Source: a virus. From it: a DNA stretch of 27,523 bases. The translations under genes were made by a program, and so were the position numbers. Location: the IMG/VR virus record IMGVR_UViG_3300036800_000057, positions 1 through 27,523 of that record; one strand, 5' to 3'. This document shows positions 97 through 8,786 of this stretch, one piece after another (position 1 is the first letter of the stretch; the number at the start of each line of letters is the position of its first letter). The notes beneath the pieces are model-generated. The model did not search any database and had not been told where the DNA came from. It saw nothing but the letters and a program-made list of their open reading frames with translations.

Positions 97-288
97 CTAC
101 CGTCGGCACCGAAGTTCCCTCTCCAGCTCAGCGTTCCGCGCTTGATAGACCTCAAGCTGCCGGGTCAACGTGCCGATGCACTCCGTCATCGTTCGAAATT
201 GCGCCCAGACCCGCGTGGGGACGATGTAGAGCCGGTAGTCTATGCGCAAGGTCTTGCCGACGTCGGCGCAGCGCTGAACGTCAATCAT
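97..288 (-). CDS. small hypothetical protein, helical C-terminus
   Basis: This 63-aa protein is not recognised. Its C-terminal half (QLEVYQARNAELERELRCRR) has the charged heptad look of a short coiled coil. The ATG at 288-286 lies inside the 8-bp repeat that flanks the methyltransferase cassette. Before that insertion, this ATG probably overlapped the GcrA stop codon as TGATG. It is now preceded by the cassette end, which supplies CATG and a three-codon reading frame (M-V-R-stop) whose TGA overlaps this ATG as ATGA. It was therefore the gene downstream of GcrA in the ancestral operon and appears to remain expressible by reinitiation. It could also be a remnant, since it has no known domain. 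Confidence 0.5.
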   Translation of the reverse strand: MIDVQRCADVGKTLRIDYRLYIVPTRVWAQFRTMTECIGTLTRQLEVYQARNAELERELRCRR

Positions 289-293
289 CGGAC
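286..293 (-). repeat. 8-bp flanking repeat, downstream copy
   Basis: GTCCGATG in cargo orientation; its ATG is the start codon of the 63-aa gene. It differs from GTCTGATG at 883-890 by T to C, which removes the stop codon from this copy. Confidence 0.6.
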
Positions 294-321
294 CATGCCT
301 ATCCGGTTAGCGCCCATCAGG
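294..321 (-). repeat. downstream terminal repeat, methyltransferase cassette
   Basis: Read in cargo direction it is CCTGATGGGCGC followed by TAACCGGATAGGCATG. It matches 7420-7446 with one extra A. It contains the methyltransferase stop codon TAA, a GGATAGG purine run and a terminal ATG. Its outer 15 bp are the inverse of the upstream end. Confidence 0.8.
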
Positions 322-843
322 ACCACTTGTTGATTGGGGGAGCACGAACTTGCCCTGCCATGTTTTCCAGGCGCGACCGATCGCGCCAGACCCCGGAAAC
401 AGGTCTGCCAAGTCGTCGGTCGGACACGCTCCGACCATCTCGAAAGCCCAATGGCAGACGGCCTCCGGCTTCACTCCGGTCAGGCCGCGCTTGAGCGTGA
501 TGCTTTCCTGTATCCAGTCGCGCATCACGAGCCGCTTGCTGACGACCGGCTTGCGAGCGGCCTTCACAATGACAGGCTCCCAGGCGTAGGCGACGCTGAC
601 GTTCTTTTTGAACGCCGCAAAGCCCTTCACCCATGACATCCAGCGCGCTCCCGTGGGAGCGATTAGTGGGGCCAGCGTGGCGATGCTCGTTGGCGTCGCG
701 CTTGCGTGAAGAACCCACCCGTCGAACTCGCTTTCGAGGCGTTCGATAAGCGCGGCGTGATCGACTTCGCCGCCGAAGTCAGGGTGATCGGCGTAGAGGT
801 GCGCACACCCGATATACGGCGGATCGGCGTAAGCGATGCGCAT
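307..843 (-). CDS. small beta-class DNA methyltransferase
   Basis: The 178-aa protein has an amino-methyltransferase DPPY motif at residues 7-10 (YADPPYIG) and an AdoMet-binding FPGSG motif at 149-153 (DLFPGSGAIGRAW). Motif IV comes first and motif I last, which is the order of the beta class that includes CcrM. It would methylate N6-adenine or N4-cytosine in DNA. At 178 aa it is about half the size of CcrM and has only a short central region for target recognition, so specificity cannot be read. The stop TAA falls within the downstream cassette end. The ATG overlaps the stop of a mini-peptide encoded by the upstream end (TGATG). No restriction partner is adjacent, so self-protection or epigenetic control is more likely than restriction-modification. 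GcrA, which senses methylated promoters in host bacteria, is directly upstream. Confidence 0.85.
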   Translation of the reverse strand: MRIAYADPPYIGCAHLYADHPDFGGEVDHAALIERLESEFDGWVLHASATPTSIATLAPLIAPTGARWMSWVKGFAAFKKNVSVAYAWEPVIVKAARKPVVSKRLVMRDWIQESITLKRGLTGVKPEAVCHWAFEMVGACPTDDLADLFPGSGAIGRAWKTWQGKFVLPQSTSGPDGR

Positions 844-881
844 CAGGATTTAGTGGTCATGGGTGAAAACCGGATAGGCAT
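843..881 (-). CDS. cassette leader mini-ORF MPIRFSPMTTKS
   Basis: A 12-codon frame starts at the ATG inside the outer CATG of the cassette end and stops at TGA 845-843, which overlaps the methyltransferase ATG (TGATG). The first ten residues, MPIRFSPMTT, are identical in the leader of the other cassette at 6559-6606 because both come from the conserved terminal repeat. The GcrA stop lies a few bases upstream, so ribosomes could reinitiate here and then couple into the methyltransferase. Whether the peptide has a function of its own is unknown; coupling is the inferred role. Confidence 0.45.
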   Translation of the reverse strand: MPIRFSPMTTKS

Positions 882-882
882 G
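853..882 (-). repeat. upstream terminal repeat, methyltransferase cassette
   Basis: In cargo orientation it begins CATGCCTATCCGGTTTTCAC and ends CCATGACCAC. All 30 bp are identical to 6558-6587. It encodes MPIRFSPMTT. Confidence 0.85.
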
Positions 883-890
883 CATCAGAC
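883..890 (-). repeat. 8-bp flanking repeat, upstream copy
   Basis: GTCTGATG in cargo orientation; contains the GcrA TGA stop. The partner copy at 286-293 is GTCCGATG, with one mismatch. Confidence 0.6.
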
Positions 891-1403
891 GTACCGGCGC
901 AGCGACCTTTCAAGGTCATGAGCGCTTCCCTTGCTGGGCGCGAACGCGAGCGCCGCGTGATCGGCGCAGTAGGAACCGACCCCGCCGATTTGCCGGCCGC
1001 AAAACCCAAAGGCCGCATCCTGGGGATCACCAACGGGCCATCTGCAACCGTGCCGGCCAATCGTCTCGATCGTGCATGTGGCGGATAGGGTTTCAGGACG
1101 GAGAACGACCGCCTCCGGGACGATTGGCGGCCCAGCTGCGGCCTTGGGCGCCGGCTTCGGCTTCGCGATGAACGAACCGTTGATGATCCTGGAGCGGAGC
1201 ACGGCCACGGTTTTATGGGCCACCGCGCGGCCTGGGTTGATGACGCCCAGGCGATGCAGCTTTCCGATCACCGCGTTCCGCGAGGGAGAACTGCCGTCAG
1301 GCTGGACAAGTGATCGCGCTATCTCGGAAGCGCTGGACCCGTTCTTGTACATCTCGGCGGCGTGTTCTGCGACGCCTTCCTTTTTCCAGTCGAAGTCCGT
1401 CAT
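885..1403 (-). CDS. gcrA: GcrA-like cell-cycle regulator
   Basis: This 172-aa protein belongs to the GcrA family of alphaproteobacterial transcription regulators. The N-terminal helix-turn-helix shows the family signature (SASEIARSL, then SRNAVIGKLHRLGV at about residues 20-50). The C-terminus has the typical Cys/His region (CRWPVGDP, FGFCG, SYCADHAALAF), which contacts sigma70 RNA polymerase in the known family. In Caulobacter GcrA activates cell-cycle genes at promoters methylated by CcrM. The linker is Pro/Ala-rich. ATG at 1403 fits the family start and has GGGGGGCG upstream. An alternative ATG at 1424 overlaps the RuvC stop as ATGA and adds seven residues. The gene is in a minus-strand operon with RuvC and, through an inserted cassette, a DNA methyltransferase. 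A role in redirecting host transcription is inference. Confidence 0.88.
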   Translation of the reverse strand: MTDFDWKKEGVAEHAAEMYKNGSSASEIARSLVQPDGSSPSRNAVIGKLHRLGVINPGRAVAHKTVAVLRSRIINGSFIAKPKPAPKAAAGPPIVPEAVVLRPETLSATCTIETIGRHGCRWPVGDPQDAAFGFCGRQIGGVGSYCADHAALAFAPSKGSAHDLERSLRRYV

Positions 1404-1420
1404 CTCGCCCCCCGTTGATG

Positions 1421-1939
1421 TCATCCGCGCAGCCGCAGCGGCGGCCGGAACTTCGCGGCCAGATCGGGCTGGAGCGTCTGGAGCGCGTGCAACCAGACGC
1501 CCGCCGCATCGGCCTCGTCGTGATGCTCGATCTTCAGACCGAGAGCGCGTGCCGCGTCCATCATCTCGGGCTTCAAGGCGTTCCCCCGACCGGTCAGTGC
1601 GCGCTTTGCCTGCTGCACCGTAACCTCTCGTAAAGGAACATGGGCCTGTCGGCAAGCGAGCCCGGTGATCGCGGCTAGGCCGTGCGTGATCCGGACAGAC
1701 TGGGTGCTCGTCTTGCGCGCCACGATGGGCGCTTCGATGACGATCAGGGTAGGCTTGTAGTCCCGGATCAGGTTGCCGATCCAGCCATAGTGATTCTCGA
1801 AGAGCGGTTCCAGGAGTGCCGGGCTCTCATCGTCGCCTGCATATGGGTTGAGGCGTGAATTGACGGCGGGGAGACGCTCTCCGCCCCCCGCCGCCCAGCC
1901 TGTGCGGCTTCCGTGGTCGAGCGCGAGCAGACGGATCAG
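1421..1939 (-). CDS. ruvC: RuvC-like Holliday junction resolvase, CTG start
   Basis: Starting from CTG at 1939 the product is 172 aa. It has the four RuvC acidic residues at nearly textbook spacing: D8 (LLALDHGSRTG), E69 (LIVIEAP), and D141 and D144 (HHDEADAAG). It also has the basic TGRGNALK region before the last pair. The enzyme would resolve four-way junctions during phage recombination or packaging. The first in-frame GTG, at 1723, would remove D8 and E69, so translation must begin further upstream. There is no ATG, GTG or TTG between the upstream stop codon of this frame and D8. CTG at 1939-1937 overlaps the preceding gene's TGA as CTGA, mimicking the ATGA coupling used elsewhere in the genome. 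The start codon is the unusual part; the family call is firm. Confidence 0.82.
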   Translation of the reverse strand: MIRLLALDHGSRTGWAAGGGERLPAVNSRLNPYAGDDESPALLEPLFENHYGWIGNLIRDYKPTLIVIEAPIVARKTSTQSVRITHGLAAITGLACRQAHVPLREVTVQQAKRALTGRGNALKPEMMDAARALGLKIEHHDEADAAGVWLHALQTLQPDLAAKFRPPLRLRG

Positions 1940-5584: not shown

Positions 5585-5619
5585 GCGCGTGGTCCCAAGA
5601 TGCGGAGATCGTGTTTTGA
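5581..5619 (+). CDS. 12-aa mini-cistron linking two genes
   Basis: ATG at 5581 overlaps the upstream stop (ATGA) and encodes MSAWSQDAEIVF. Its TGA (5617-5619) overlaps the TTG start of the exonuclease (TTGA). The peptide is probably a translational relay that delivers ribosomes to the weak TTG start. It may also be the eroded remnant of a larger gene. Confidence 0.35.
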   Translation: MSAWSQDAEIVF

Positions 5620-6554
5620 CGGCTCCCTTCCTCACCGAAATATGGCAGGGCGTCGTCAGCGGACCCGGCCTCTATCTCGGCGTCCCGGCGGCCCGCTACC
5701 ATCTTGACCCGTGCCCTGAACCCAGTCTCTCCGCCTCCGTCGCCAAGATCGCCTTCAACCGCTCGCTGAAGCACGCCAAGGCCGCGCATCCCCGCCTCCG
5801 CGACCCGGACTTTCCCGAGGATGACGACACCGAAGAGCGGTCGAGGCCGTGGTACATGGAGGTGGGCAGCGCCTGCCACACGCTAGTGCTCGGGCGCGGC
5901 GAGGAACCGGTCGAGATCAAGGTCCCAAACTTCCGCAAGAAGGATGCCCAGGAGCAGCGCGACCTCGCCCGCGCTCAGGGGAAAATCCCCCTGATCACCA
6001 AGCACTACGACATCGCGCACCGGATGGCCGCCGTCGCCCGCCCGGTGGTGGAAAACCTGCTTGGGGCTGAGTTTCTCGCCGAGTCGATGGTCTGCTCGGA
6101 AGAGAAGGGTATGTGGCGCCGGTCTCTGCTGGACGCCGCAAGCTTCGATCTGCGGAACATCTGCGATCTGAAGACCACGAGCTTGGAGATGTCGCCGCAA
6201 CAGGCCGCCCGCACCGTCAACCGCGCGAACAACGCTTTTCAGGCCGCGTATTACATACGGAACGCCGACAACATCGACCCTAGCGGCATGGGCCGTCGCC
6301 GCTTCCTGTTCGCCTATATCGAGACGGAATATCCCTACGAGATGTCAGTCGTCTATCCGGACGAAGCGCTGATGACCAAGGCGGACGCCGAGGTCAATGC
6401 CGCCTGCATCATCTGGGATCGCGCCATGCGAACCGGCGTCTGGCCCGGCTACTCACGCGAGCCATTCCCTATCGCTCCGGAGAACTGGATGATGCGCCAG
6501 TTCGAGGACAGAATGCTGATGGACGACACCCTGAAGGAGGACGAGCATGGCTGA
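5616..6554 (+). CDS. PDDEXK phage exonuclease (RecE/DUF3799-like)
   Basis: Starting from TTG at 5616 the product is 312 aa and begins MTAPFLTEIWQGVVSGPGLY. Catalytic-core features are ACHTLVLG (helix A region), RRSLLDAAS (acidic residue) and NICDLKTTS (D-x-K pair), then QAAYYIRNAD (QxxxY motif). This order is typical of PDDEXK exonucleases of the YqaJ/RecE type, which resect double-stranded DNA for annealing. The gene acts with the Rad50-like ATPase and probably the RecA-fold NTPase at 7683. The TTG overlaps the mini-cistron stop. The stop TGA (6552-6554) overlapped the start of the next gene before a cassette was inserted there. Confidence 0.85.
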   Translation: MTAPFLTEIWQGVVSGPGLYLGVPAARYHLDPCPEPSLSASVAKIAFNRSLKHAKAAHPRLRDPDFPEDDDTEERSRPWYMEVGSACHTLVLGRGEEPVEIKVPNFRKKDAQEQRDLARAQGKIPLITKHYDIAHRMAAVARPVVENLLGAEFLAESMVCSEEKGMWRRSLLDAASFDLRNICDLKTTSLEMSPQQAARTVNRANNAFQAAYYIRNADNIDPSGMGRRRFLFAYIETEYPYEMSVVYPDEALMTKADAEVNAACIIWDRAMRTGVWPGYSREPFPIAPENWMMRQFEDRMLMDDTLKEDEHG

Positions 6555-6606
6555 GACCATGCCTATCCGGTTTTCACCCATGACCACCAGATTTAGGAGC
6601 GCGTGA
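6547..6606 (+). CDS. fused leader ORF driving the inserted cargo gene
   Basis: The interrupted gene's original ribosome binding site (AAGGAGG, 6534-6540) and ATG (6547) are intact. They now read through the 8-bp repeat into the cassette end as MAETMPIRFSPMTTRFRSA, stopping at TGA 6604-6606, which overlaps the PP-loop gene ATG as TGATG. Residues 5-14 equal the leader of the methyltransferase cassette. The insertion thus places cargo translation under the target gene's own start signals. The coupling role is inferred; a peptide function is unknown. Confidence 0.45.
   Translation: MAETMPIRFSPMTTRFRSA
6550..6557 (+). repeat. 8-bp target duplication, upstream copy
   Basis: GCTGAGAC, identical to 7447-7454. 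It contains the exonuclease stop codon TGA, so the upstream gene is left intact. Confidence 0.75.
6558..6587 (+). repeat. upstream terminal repeat, PP-loop cassette
   Basis: 30 bp identical to 853-882 read on the other strand; starts CATGCCTATCCGGTT and ends CCATGACCAC. It encodes MPIRFSPMTT in the leader frame. Confidence 0.85.
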
Positions 6607-7400
6607 TGCGGACGTATGTTTGCTTCAACAGCGGCGGCAACGACAGCATCGCAACGCTTGAGTTTATGGTGCTGAACGAACTGCCGAAGAAGGCCCGCGT
6701 GGTCAGTCTGTACAACAACACGGGCTGGGCTGCGGTCTATTGGGCTGACCGAATGGCCCAAGTGTCGGCGTGGTGCGCGGATCGCGGGATTGAGCACGTC
6801 GAACTGGCCACCAAAGGATTTGAGCGCCTTGTGCTGGACGGCGACGCCGGGACGATCCGCTTCCCGAACGGTATGCGGAAGACCTGCACCGAGCGCCTGA
6901 AAATCCTCCCGGCCAAGCGCTGGCTGGATAAGCGCGATCCTGAGGGAGAGGCCATCTGTGTCCTTGGCGTGCGCCGGTCGGAAAGCCAGCGCCGGGCGCA
7001 GACGCCCATCTACGAGCCGATTTCCATCAACCACGGTGGCCGGGCGCTCTGGAAGCCCCTGGCCGAGTACTCGGATGAGCAGCGCGATCAGTTGCTGGTC
7101 AGCGCTGGGTTCGAGGTGCTGCCTCACAGGTCGGACGAATGCGAGGTTTGCATTCACGCCAATCGCGCCGATCTGCGGCGGGTGAGCGATGAGGGCATTG
7201 CCCGCGTCCGTGCGCTGGAAGACGCCACCGGCAAGGTGATGTTTCGCCCCAAGGCGTACGCCGGGGCCACGGGTATCGATGAGGTCATGCGGTGGGCGCA
7301 CAGCGAGCGCGGCGCGTTTAGGCCCGCCATTCCCCTCGCTGAAGCGGTCGAAGGGGAGCCCAAGATTGAGGGGTGCGAAGATGACTTCTGCGGCCTCTAG
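6606..7400 (+). CDS. PAPS-reductase-like PP-loop ATPase
   Basis: This 264-aa protein has a PP-loop SGGNDS at residues 9-14, the ATP-pyrophosphatase motif of the PAPS reductase/DndC-like superfamily. It has a central GVRRSESQRRA segment typical of phage members and a Cys-rich C-terminal half (CEVCIHANRADL, CEDDFCGL). Such enzymes adenylate or reduce sulfur or nucleotide substrates; phage versions are widespread and mostly uncharacterised, with nucleic-acid modification a common proposal. ATG at 6606 has AGGAG in the cassette leader and overlaps the leader stop; a GTG one codon earlier is the alternative start. It is the only cargo of the 889-bp inverted-repeat cassette, as the methyltransferase is of the other. 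Confidence 0.82.
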   Translation: MRTYVCFNSGGNDSIATLEFMVLNELPKKARVVSLYNNTGWAAVYWADRMAQVSAWCADRGIEHVELATKGFERLVLDGDAGTIRFPNGMRKTCTERLKILPAKRWLDKRDPEGEAICVLGVRRSESQRRAQTPIYEPISINHGGRALWKPLAEYSDEQRDQLLVSAGFEVLPHRSDECEVCIHANRADLRRVSDEGIARVRALEDATGKVMFRPKAYAGATGIDEVMRWAHSERGAFRPAIPLAEAVEGEPKIEGCEDDFCGL

Positions 7401-7419
7401 CCAAACACCACATCTCGCC

Positions 7420-7446
7420 CCTGTGGGCGCTAACCGGATAGGCATG
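7420..7446 (+). repeat. downstream terminal repeat, PP-loop cassette
   Basis: CCTGTGGGCGC followed by TAACCGGATAGGCATG. It matches 294-321 with one missing base, and its last 15 bp are the inverse of the upstream end. Its final ATG is the present start codon of the downstream 80-aa gene. Confidence 0.82.
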
Positions 7447-7686
7447 GCTGAGACGTTCAACGTGGTCCAATTCTTCCCGGACGGAACGCACGAAGCCATC
7501 CGCGAGCGCGTCGGCGCCCAGGAGGCCGTCGAGACCGCCCGGGACTACACGCTGGCCACGCGGCCGGGCGTGATCCTCGGCGCCATCCAGCGCGTGATCA
7601 TCACCGACTCGGACGATTTCACCGTGTTCGAGTGGAAGCACGGCGAGGGCGTCACCTTCCCACCAGAATCGGCAGGCCGACAATGA
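7444..7686 (+). CDS. hypothetical phage protein, target of cassette insertion
   Basis: This 80-aa protein begins MAETFNVVQFFPDG and has beta-rich character (VVQFFPDG, RVIITDSDDFTVFEW). It is not recognised as a characterised family. The cassette at 6558-7446 entered directly after its start codon. The first four codons are duplicated upstream at 6547-6558, and the present ATG comes from the cassette end. The original AAGGAGG site now lies 900 bp upstream, so initiation must rely on GGATAGG in the cassette terminus. The stop overlaps the next start as ATGA. Confidence 0.72.
   Translation: MAETFNVVQFFPDGTHEAIRERVGAQEAVETARDYTLATRPGVILGAIQRVIITDSDDFTVFEWKHGEGVTFPPESAGRQ
7447..7454 (+). repeat. 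8-bp target duplication, downstream copy
   Basis: GCTGAGAC, encoding codons 2-4 of the downstream gene (A-E-T). Identity with 6550-6557 extends to 13 bp (GCATGGCTGAGAC) because the cassette end also terminates in GCATG. Confidence 0.75.
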
Positions 7687-8786
7687 GTAGAGATTGGACC
7701 GCCTTCCCGGCCGTGCGCGAGCAACTACCGCTGCTCATCGGCTTATCGGGCGCTCCGGGTTCGGGCAAAACCTACAGCGCCTTGACGCTCGCCCAAGGCA
7801 TCAAGAGCCATCGCGGCGGCTCGATCATCCTGCTGGATACGGACGGCGACCGTGCCCGCGCCTATGCGCCTCGCAAGGGCGAGGTCGCCAATGGCGTAAC
7901 CAGCTTCGATTTCGAACACCTCAGCTTCGCGCCGCCTTACGGGCCGGACGACTTCCTCGCGGCGATCCAGGCCCAGCTACCGCGCAACCCGGCCTGCATA
8001 ATCGTGGACGCCCTGAGCGCAGAACACGAAGGCGAGGGCGGCGTACTCTGGCTTCATGACACGGAGCTGGACCGGATGGCCGGCGACGATTGGAAGAAGC
8101 GGGATGTCATGACAACCACCGCCTGGATCAAGCCTAAAGCAGCAAGGCGGCGACTGATCAATTTTCTCATGAAAATGAAGGTGCCGATAATCGCAACCTT
8201 CCAGGCGAGGGAGAAAACGAAGCTTATCCAGAATGACAGGGGCAAGATGGCGCCGACGAACATTGGCTGGACTCCCATCGCCCCGAGCGAGATCATCCAG
8301 TCGATGACGCTGTTCTGCCTTCTGCCGATCCGGAGCGACGGAGTTCCCATGTGGAAAGGGAACACCGCGCACGAGGACTTCACGATCAAGCTCCCGGTCC
8401 AATTCAAGCATCTGTTCCCGGACAGTCAGCCGCTCAACCAATCGATGGGCGCCGCCATGTCGCGCTGGGCGGCCGGTGACGACGCCAAGGCCGCCCCCGC
8501 CTCACCACCGCCGCCCCCTCCGCCGCCTGCCGCCGCGTCTAATACGCAACCCACCTCCGAATCGACCGGCTCATGGGATTACGCTGCGTGGCAGAAGGCC
8601 TCCACGGAAGTCCTCGCCGGCATCACGACGGTTGCCGATCTGGACGCTTGGCGGGGCGATGAGTCGAACAAGGAGTGCTTCGGCAAGCTGACGGCTGCTG
8701 ATCCAGCGCTCGCCAAGTCGCTGAGCGCCGCGATCCAGGGTCGAAGGAAGGCGCTACTCGACAAGGAAACGGAGCCGCAGTTTTGA
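7683..8786 (+). CDS. RecA-fold phage NTPase (AAA_24-like, possible Sak4-type)
   Basis: This 367-aa protein has Walker A GAPGSGKTYS near residues 22-31, a Walker B-like CIIVDALSAEH and a sensor-like VPIIATFQAREKTK. This RecA-like core resembles phage AAA_24 and Sak4-type recombination ATPases that load on or anneal single-stranded DNA. After a poly-proline linker (PASPPPPPPPPAAAS) a C-terminal domain of about 85 residues follows (SWDYAAWQKAST to the end), possibly a protein-interaction module. It sits in the same operon as the exonuclease and Rad50-like ATPase. The start overlaps the upstream stop (ATGA) and the stop overlaps the next gene (TTGA). Confidence 0.78.
   Translation: MSRDWTAFPAVREQLPLLIGLSGAPGSGKTYSALTLAQGIKSHRGGSIILLDTDGDRARAYAPRKGEVANGVTSFDFEHLSFAPPYGPDDFLAAIQAQLPRNPACIIVDALSAEHEGEGGVLWLHDTELDRMAGDDWKKRDVMTTTAWIKPKAARRRLINFLMKMKVPIIATFQAREKTKLIQNDRGKMAPTNIGWTPIAPSEIIQSMTLFCLLPIRSDGVPMWKGNTAHEDFTIKLPVQFKHLFPDSQPLNQSMGAAMSRWAAGDDAKAAPASPPPPPPPPAAASNTQPTSESTGSWDYAAWQKASTEVLAGITTVADLDAWRGDESNKECFGKLTAADPALAKSLSAAIQGRRKALLDKETEPQF

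Follow-up and report, generated by a model that had tools for sequence, protein, structure and literature searches.

Two single-gene cassettes with IS1595-type ends in an uncultivated phage fragment and their relatives in viral contigs

Introduction

How can a single accessory gene enter a tight phage operon and leave both neighboring genes intact? Such arrivals, e.g., of orphan methyltransferases, are usually ascribed to illegitimate recombination. The question is raised by a viral sequence of 27,523 nucleotides (the whole of IMG/VR record IMGVR_UViG_3300036800_000057, hereafter the window), which carries two short elements, cassettes A and B, inserted between codirectional genes. According to the original prediction, the downstream end of the element recreates the start codon of the gene that it interrupts, the insertions are nearly neutral, and stop/start junctions are selected or targeted. 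The analysis described here suggests that A and B are very probably non-autonomous mobile insertion cassettes of the IS1595 lineage, moved by a transposase acting in trans.

In the scheme that we propose, a single gene that lacks a promoter but has a ribosome-binding site would lie between two inverted repeats, and an IS1595 transposase supplied in trans would insert this cassette, creating an 8-bp target duplication. The transposase would favor palindromic A+T-rich targets, which start and stop codons match in G+C-rich phage genomes. The duplication would then often copy a stop/start junction, so that both neighboring genes survive, while gene-breaking insertions would be lost more often and the cargo would be transcribed via read-through from the phage operon. 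In this way, operon insertion sparing both neighbors would be explained without special targeting. The mobilization in trans, as well as the advantage that a phage would gain from the cargo, is what we infer from the sequence data.

Structure of the two cassettes

The tip occurs in the window exactly four times, as compared with 0.55 occurrences expected in shuffled sequence even if three mismatches are allowed, and the 15-bp tips of A and B are identical (Table 1). The right tip of B is the exact reverse complement of its left tip.

Table 1. Features of the window at and around cassettes A and B
Feature	Coordinates	Strand	Evidence and remarks
Gene downstream of A, 63 aa	97..288	-	gene finder; start codon preserved within duplication
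Target duplication of A, CATCGGAC (minus strand: GTCCGATG)	286..293		contains downstream gene's ATG
Cassette A, transposase-less, single DNA-methyltransferase-like gene	294..882	-	same tips as B; flanking 8-mers match at 7/8 positions
Cargo of A, permuted amino-methyltransferase-like, 178 aa	307..843	-	motifs, structure model, fold matches
Target duplication of A, CATCAGAC (minus strand: GTCTGATG)	883..890		contains upstream gene's TGA
Gene upstream of A, GcrA-like	885..1424	-	PF07750, E 4.8e-27
Gene upstream of B, exonuclease-VIII-like	5616..6554	+	phrog_412, E 6.6e-42; PF12684
Leader opened by native target ATG	6547..6606	+	translation; gene-finder cargo start
Target duplication of B, left copy, GCTGAGAC	6550..6557		contains upstream gene's TGA (6552-6554)
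Cassette B, transposase-less, single PAPS-reductase-like gene	6558..7446	+	perfect 15-bp terminal inverted repeats; 8-bp target duplication
Left tip of B, CATGCCTATCCGGTT	6558..6572	+	exact match
Cargo of B, PAPS-reductase-like, 264 aa	6606..7400	+	PF01507, E 5.7e-6; phrog_424, E 2.4e-24; local DndC match
Right tip of B, AACCGGATAGGCATG on plus strand	7432..7446	-	outward-facing ATG (7444-7446)
Target ORF interrupted by B, 80 aa	7444..7686	+	starts on element's terminal ATG; independent gene finder
Target duplication of B, right copy, GCTGAGAC	7447..7454		
Gene downstream of B, P-loop ATPase-like	7683..8786	+	phrog_1366; weak P-loop matches

Joined without the element, the site of B reads ...GAGC ATG GCTGAGAC GTTCAAC..., and by both direct reading and a script the final ATG of B occupies the place of the native target ATG (6547-6549). 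Coordinates and joined site therefore agree with the prediction that the terminal ATG replaces that of the target and keeps the 80-aa protein intact: the whole sequence of this ORF is retained despite the insertion. The native ATG is also still present, as the start of a 19-codon leader, MAETMPIRFSPMTTRFRSA, with a stop codon that overlaps the start of the cargo gene (TGATG at 6604-6608). At its other end, the 80-aa ORF is overlapped by the downstream ATPase-like gene through ATGA. The start codon was recreated when the element, whose last bases are CATG, entered directly behind a CATG start codon; this coincidence would be due to chance, and CATG plus 8 bp would thereby be duplicated in effect.

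No homologues of the 80-aa ORF were found in 50,697 phage records; in 59 related viral loci, searched for relatives that would show its native start, the single match was weak and misplaced; and a search for an empty-site allele of the same phage found none. The exonuclease-ATPase spacing in relatives varies too much to serve as an empty-site test.

At cassette A, the two repeats (GTCTGATG and GTCCGATG on the minus strand) differ by one base. The stop codon of the upstream gene is kept inside the 8-bp repeat in both cassettes, as had been proposed; at A this is the TGA (887-885) of the GcrA-like gene, situated in the adjoining repeat copy. It was also correctly noted that the terminal ATG of A opens M-V-R-stop, with the TGA overlapping the ATG of the downstream ORF. 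Here the downstream start is saved by the duplicated target DNA, and the element's own ATG is not responsible. The stop codon TAA of the cargo gene lies inside the terminal repeat.

The element family and its transposase

Terminal inverted repeats and 8-bp target duplications are hallmarks of the IS1595 family, and the window elements have both. No transposase was found within the window; lacking the IS1595-type DDE enzyme, A and B are not IS1595 insertion sequences themselves. Since the tips and the duplication length are those of transposase-bearing relatives and the transposase is missing, the window elements are, judged by sequence, IS1595-derived cassettes and not IS1595 elements.

Viral contigs were scanned with the tip plus five inner bases (62 stretches) and with two further tip variants (at least 120 and 25 stretches), and a final scan added others; insertions were defined as tip pairs flanked by matching 8-mers. 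At least 122 distinct insertions with these tips were identified in uncultivated viral contigs, with duplications matching at 7-8 of 8 positions, and perfectly so in 112 of the 122 found. Among these 122, 98 are shorter than 1400 bp, mostly single-gene cassettes, and 24 are longer. Most of the long elements have an IS1595-family transposase (PF12762, E 9e-35; PF12760; NF033547, E 1.6e-58) beside one end, plus one to four small genes, and 19 related IS1595 transposase proteins were identified. In isolate phages, the search for an IS1595 transposase yielded two distant matches only, with 25-27% identity. The entry L431 is a nested reading of another insertion and was excluded from later counts. 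An additional tip within or beside the element end was seen in L269 (8906-9794) and L431 (3546-4580), which suggests nested or alternative ends.

The same pattern in cellular genomes yielded 32 paired elements, 27 of them short (110-392 bp) and 5 of 1.05-1.2 kb; those sampled are bare insertion sequences or miniatures that are mostly non-coding. ORFs of 60 aa or longer are present in 93 of the 98 short viral elements and in 4 of the 27 short cellular ones, a contrast valid for this tip type only, as the cellular sample was picked by the same tip. In a transposase tree, whose sample was likewise selected by tip sequence, five cellular transposases group in a single supported clade, separate from most of the viral transposases. 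Sampling by tips is also biased towards young, intact elements.

Signs of mobility

The 365-bp elements L171 (11810-12174) and L204 (7073-7437), from contigs of two metagenomes, are identical in 358 of 365 bases and have different duplications and unrelated flanks. Several other kinds of related cassettes likewise reside in unrelated flanks.

One might regard the cassettes as old immobile remnants that hold genes by chance, as the IS1595 transposase is absent from 44 of the 49 cassette-bearing viral records; this absence is weak evidence, because the contigs are predicted and mostly incomplete. Such a fossil origin is very improbable given the prevalence of perfect duplications and the occurrence of the 98% identical L171 and L204 elements at unrelated sites. 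Because mobile cassettes of the kind that we propose encode no transposase, screens for transposases would overlook them.

At least four elements of 235-242 bp with 95-100% identity were observed in a single 117-kb viral contig (IMGVR_UViG_3300050119_000104). These elements (L414:6787, L419:6883, L424:4245, and L424:5080) resemble a recent burst of a miniature element.

Target sites and stop/start junctions

Site statistics were obtained for the 96 viral insertions whose 8-bp duplications are perfect and whose flanks extend for 400 bp or more in both directions. Genes were called on the joined flanks by our own 3-periodic Markov gene finder, which was checked for plausibility on the window and misses small genes. 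Control positions in the same contigs were drawn either uniformly or with weights from the target motif, cellular or viral.

A called gene is broken by 38 of the 96 insertions (40%), compared to 63-66% for motif-matched controls (p 8e-8 and 4e-9) and 75% for uniform ones. Called starts at -3 to +12 were observed for 17/96 insertions (18%; 5% in the control), stop codons within the duplication for 8/96 (1.5% expected, p ~8e-5), and start-plus-stop junctions at the site for 10/96 (less than 2% expected, p ~3e-6). Hence, the supposed near-neutrality is correct in that fewer genes are broken than in controls, but 40% of insertions still break one. The association with start codons holds for a part of the copies: called genes contain 40% of them, and for about 80% no start was called at -3 to +12. 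Transposase-bearing elements seem less neutral, breaking genes in 10 of 20 cases (12.5 expected), which is not significantly different from cassettes (p 0.31).

The exact arrangement of cassette B, with a called start at -3, is found once among the 96 insertions, while 0.3-1.2% is expected. Open runs are no longer in the frame of the terminal ATG than in the other two frames (39/37/61), and the broken genes in frame with it number 16 versus 12 and 11 (p 0.2). On these counts, the terminal ATG was rejected as a general downstream start; an early excess for its frame (20/12/9) was gone with more and cleaner sites (16/12/11). Thus, the claim that the element's ATG generally recreates the start of its target does not survive: the recreated start codon at B is real, yet it is a special case and not the rule.

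The frame counts also bear on a related explanation, in which the element ends are shaped as translation modules, the 5' end providing a ribosome-binding site and start and the 3' end a stop, an SD-like GGATARG, and ATG; insertion would then be tolerated at any place in an operon, the downstream gene restarting on the element's ATG. An SD-like site does precede 50 of 72 cargo genes, 26 of 72 cassettes have the cargo stop codon inside the 3' repeat, and at 11 of 180 ends the terminal ATG was the start chosen by the gene finder. Nevertheless, this explanation is unlikely, as the frame bias is absent, the tip is a conserved element end that is presumably required by the transposase, and its SD-like score is weak (0.5).

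The target preference is palindromic and A+T-rich, AT-N/GWWTAWWC/N-AT. ATG stands directly 5' of the duplication in 19 of 214 flanks, as opposed to 3.8 at other offsets, in line with the suggested preference for (C)ATG; however, ATC is equally common there (19). The enrichment of ATG before the duplication is due to the palindromic preference, and its reading as start-codon targeting was discarded.

A transposase that actively seeks stop/start junctions or start codons would make neutrality a matter of target choice, not of selection. The enrichment of junctions even over motif-weighted controls agrees with this, as does the concentration of called starts at duplication offsets 2 and 9. On the other hand, sampled cellular insertions have the same symmetric motif, ATC is as frequent as ATG, called genes are still broken by 40% of insertions, and a set of cassettes filtered by selection would yield equal enrichment, all of which makes active targeting rather improbable. 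Of the original prediction, the enrichment of junctions stands, while targeting can be replaced by the combination of motif and purifying selection. These two factors may account for the junction bias, selection being the simpler reading.

Cargo genes and their orientation

The cargo includes several kinds of DNA methyltransferases, Mom-like, PAPS-reductase-like, MazG-like, nucleoside-deoxyribosyltransferase-like, and TnpB-like proteins, as well as RNA ligase, NADAR, SpoU methylase, and radical-SAM proteins; many cargo genes have no family match. PAPS-reductase-like cassettes were observed at three unrelated sites (L269:8949-9710, L219, and L223), and the protein from L269 has an SspD match across most of its length. 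The main gene of the L198 cassette (1253-2408) encodes a TnpB-like (OrfB_IS605 / Cas12f-like) protein.

Flanks are short, with median distances of 43 bp from the 5' tip to the start codon and 29 bp from the stop codon to the 3' tip. In 94 pairs of cassettes with unrelated cargo and equal start offset, identity is approximately 50-80% just before the ATG and drops to background within about 6 nt past it. In L182, L220, L246, L269, and L281, whose cargo differs, the ATG follows an almost invariant 5' module of 43 bp that ends in ...GACCTACTAG.

The cargo of transposase-less elements is codirectional with the surrounding genes in a ratio of 60:4 (45:2 for cargo of at least 100 aa), whereas this ratio is 9:10 for transposase-bearing elements (Fisher p 2e-5). 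A second method, which compares the longest ORF with the majority strand within 800 bp, gave 68:2 and 12:4, respectively. Thus, the codirectional bias of cassette cargo is robust; the second method gives a weaker contrast to transposase-bearing elements. Since the median 43 bp from 5' tip to cargo start leaves scant room for a promoter, expression of the cargo probably relies on read-through from the phage operon.

More generally, the lineage with IS1595 ends may, as we suggest with some hesitation, constitute a system of one-gene exchange that captures resident genes near the start codon and moves them between unrelated phages, with codirectional carriers being kept. If so, phages would have their own analogue of integron cassettes, with a DDE transposase as its basis. 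Since the cargo genes come with recognizable ends, their movement is traceable from sequence alone.

Comparison with known systems

The zinc-ribbon DDE transposase, inverted tips, and 8-bp duplications of the IS1595 family are all shared by the transposase-bearing relatives found here. Members of this family with passenger genes are known, e.g., tISCpe8 and MTnSag1, and the passengers of those cited in PMC5704250 have a resistance or conjugation-related function in bacteria; in contrast, the elements described here carry phage-type genes in uncultivated phages.

Derivatives of insertion sequences that have coding cargo and no transposase are called mobile insertion cassettes (PMC5444012, PMC4133298). 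Those of the MIC231 type and the MICE with qnrS2 are, as here, non-autonomous, and their IS-type repeats enclose a coding sequence (PMC5444012, PMC4133298). The window elements likewise lack a transposase and have coding cargo, and their terminal repeats belong to a known IS lineage. The differences are in the many unrelated single phage genes, the near-minimal flanks, the codirectionality with operons, and the repeats that often provide the cargo stop codon. No report of cassettes with IS1595 ends in phages was found in the openly licensed literature, most subscription journals being outside the scope of the search. As to MITEs, which are short and non-coding, the window elements have the tips and duplications of the 110-390 bp cellular elements of the same pattern, but they are 589 and 889 bp long and about 90% coding.

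Integron gene cassettes, parts of which are known from phages (PMC9892861), also have one gene per mobile unit and short flanks. The notion that A and B are integron-like cassettes or homing elements and not transposon derivatives is nonetheless scarcely credible: neither target duplications nor inverted tips are expected for site-specific integration, both are present in the window elements, 8-bp duplications accompany the inverted tips at more than 100 different sites, and a DDE transposase is encoded by relatives whose tips are identical. The integron and homing readings were rejected on account of the target duplications.

Phage genomes gain and lose methyltransferases and other small accessory genes. 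In the variable metagenomic islands of cryoconite phages, no annotated gene was more frequent than orphan methyltransferases; the repeats described here were not reported in that study (PMC7468147).

Methyltransferase-like cargo of cassette A

The cargo of A has no match in Pfam or PHROG. The motifs DPPY and, further on, D-FPG-GA are invariant across 23 aligned sequences. Its predicted structure has a mean pLDDT of 84, and the best PDB fold matches shown are adenine methyltransferases, e.g., M.MboIIA and METTL3, with TM-scores of only 0.4-0.55.

We identified 49 resident viral relatives of this gene (63-87% identity), with no convincing tips bounding any of them. The nucleotide homology between the cargo and these relatives is restricted to the ORF, from the start codon to shortly before the stop. 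As the homology is limited to the ORF and no relative is convincingly bounded by tips, the cargo of A was probably acquired from a methyltransferase gene that is common and resident in phages.

The GcrA protein of Caulobacter is a reader of adenine methylation. Cassette A with its methyltransferase-like gene is situated directly 3' of the GcrA-like gene (the two genes together span 307-1424), and a functional link between the two is possible.
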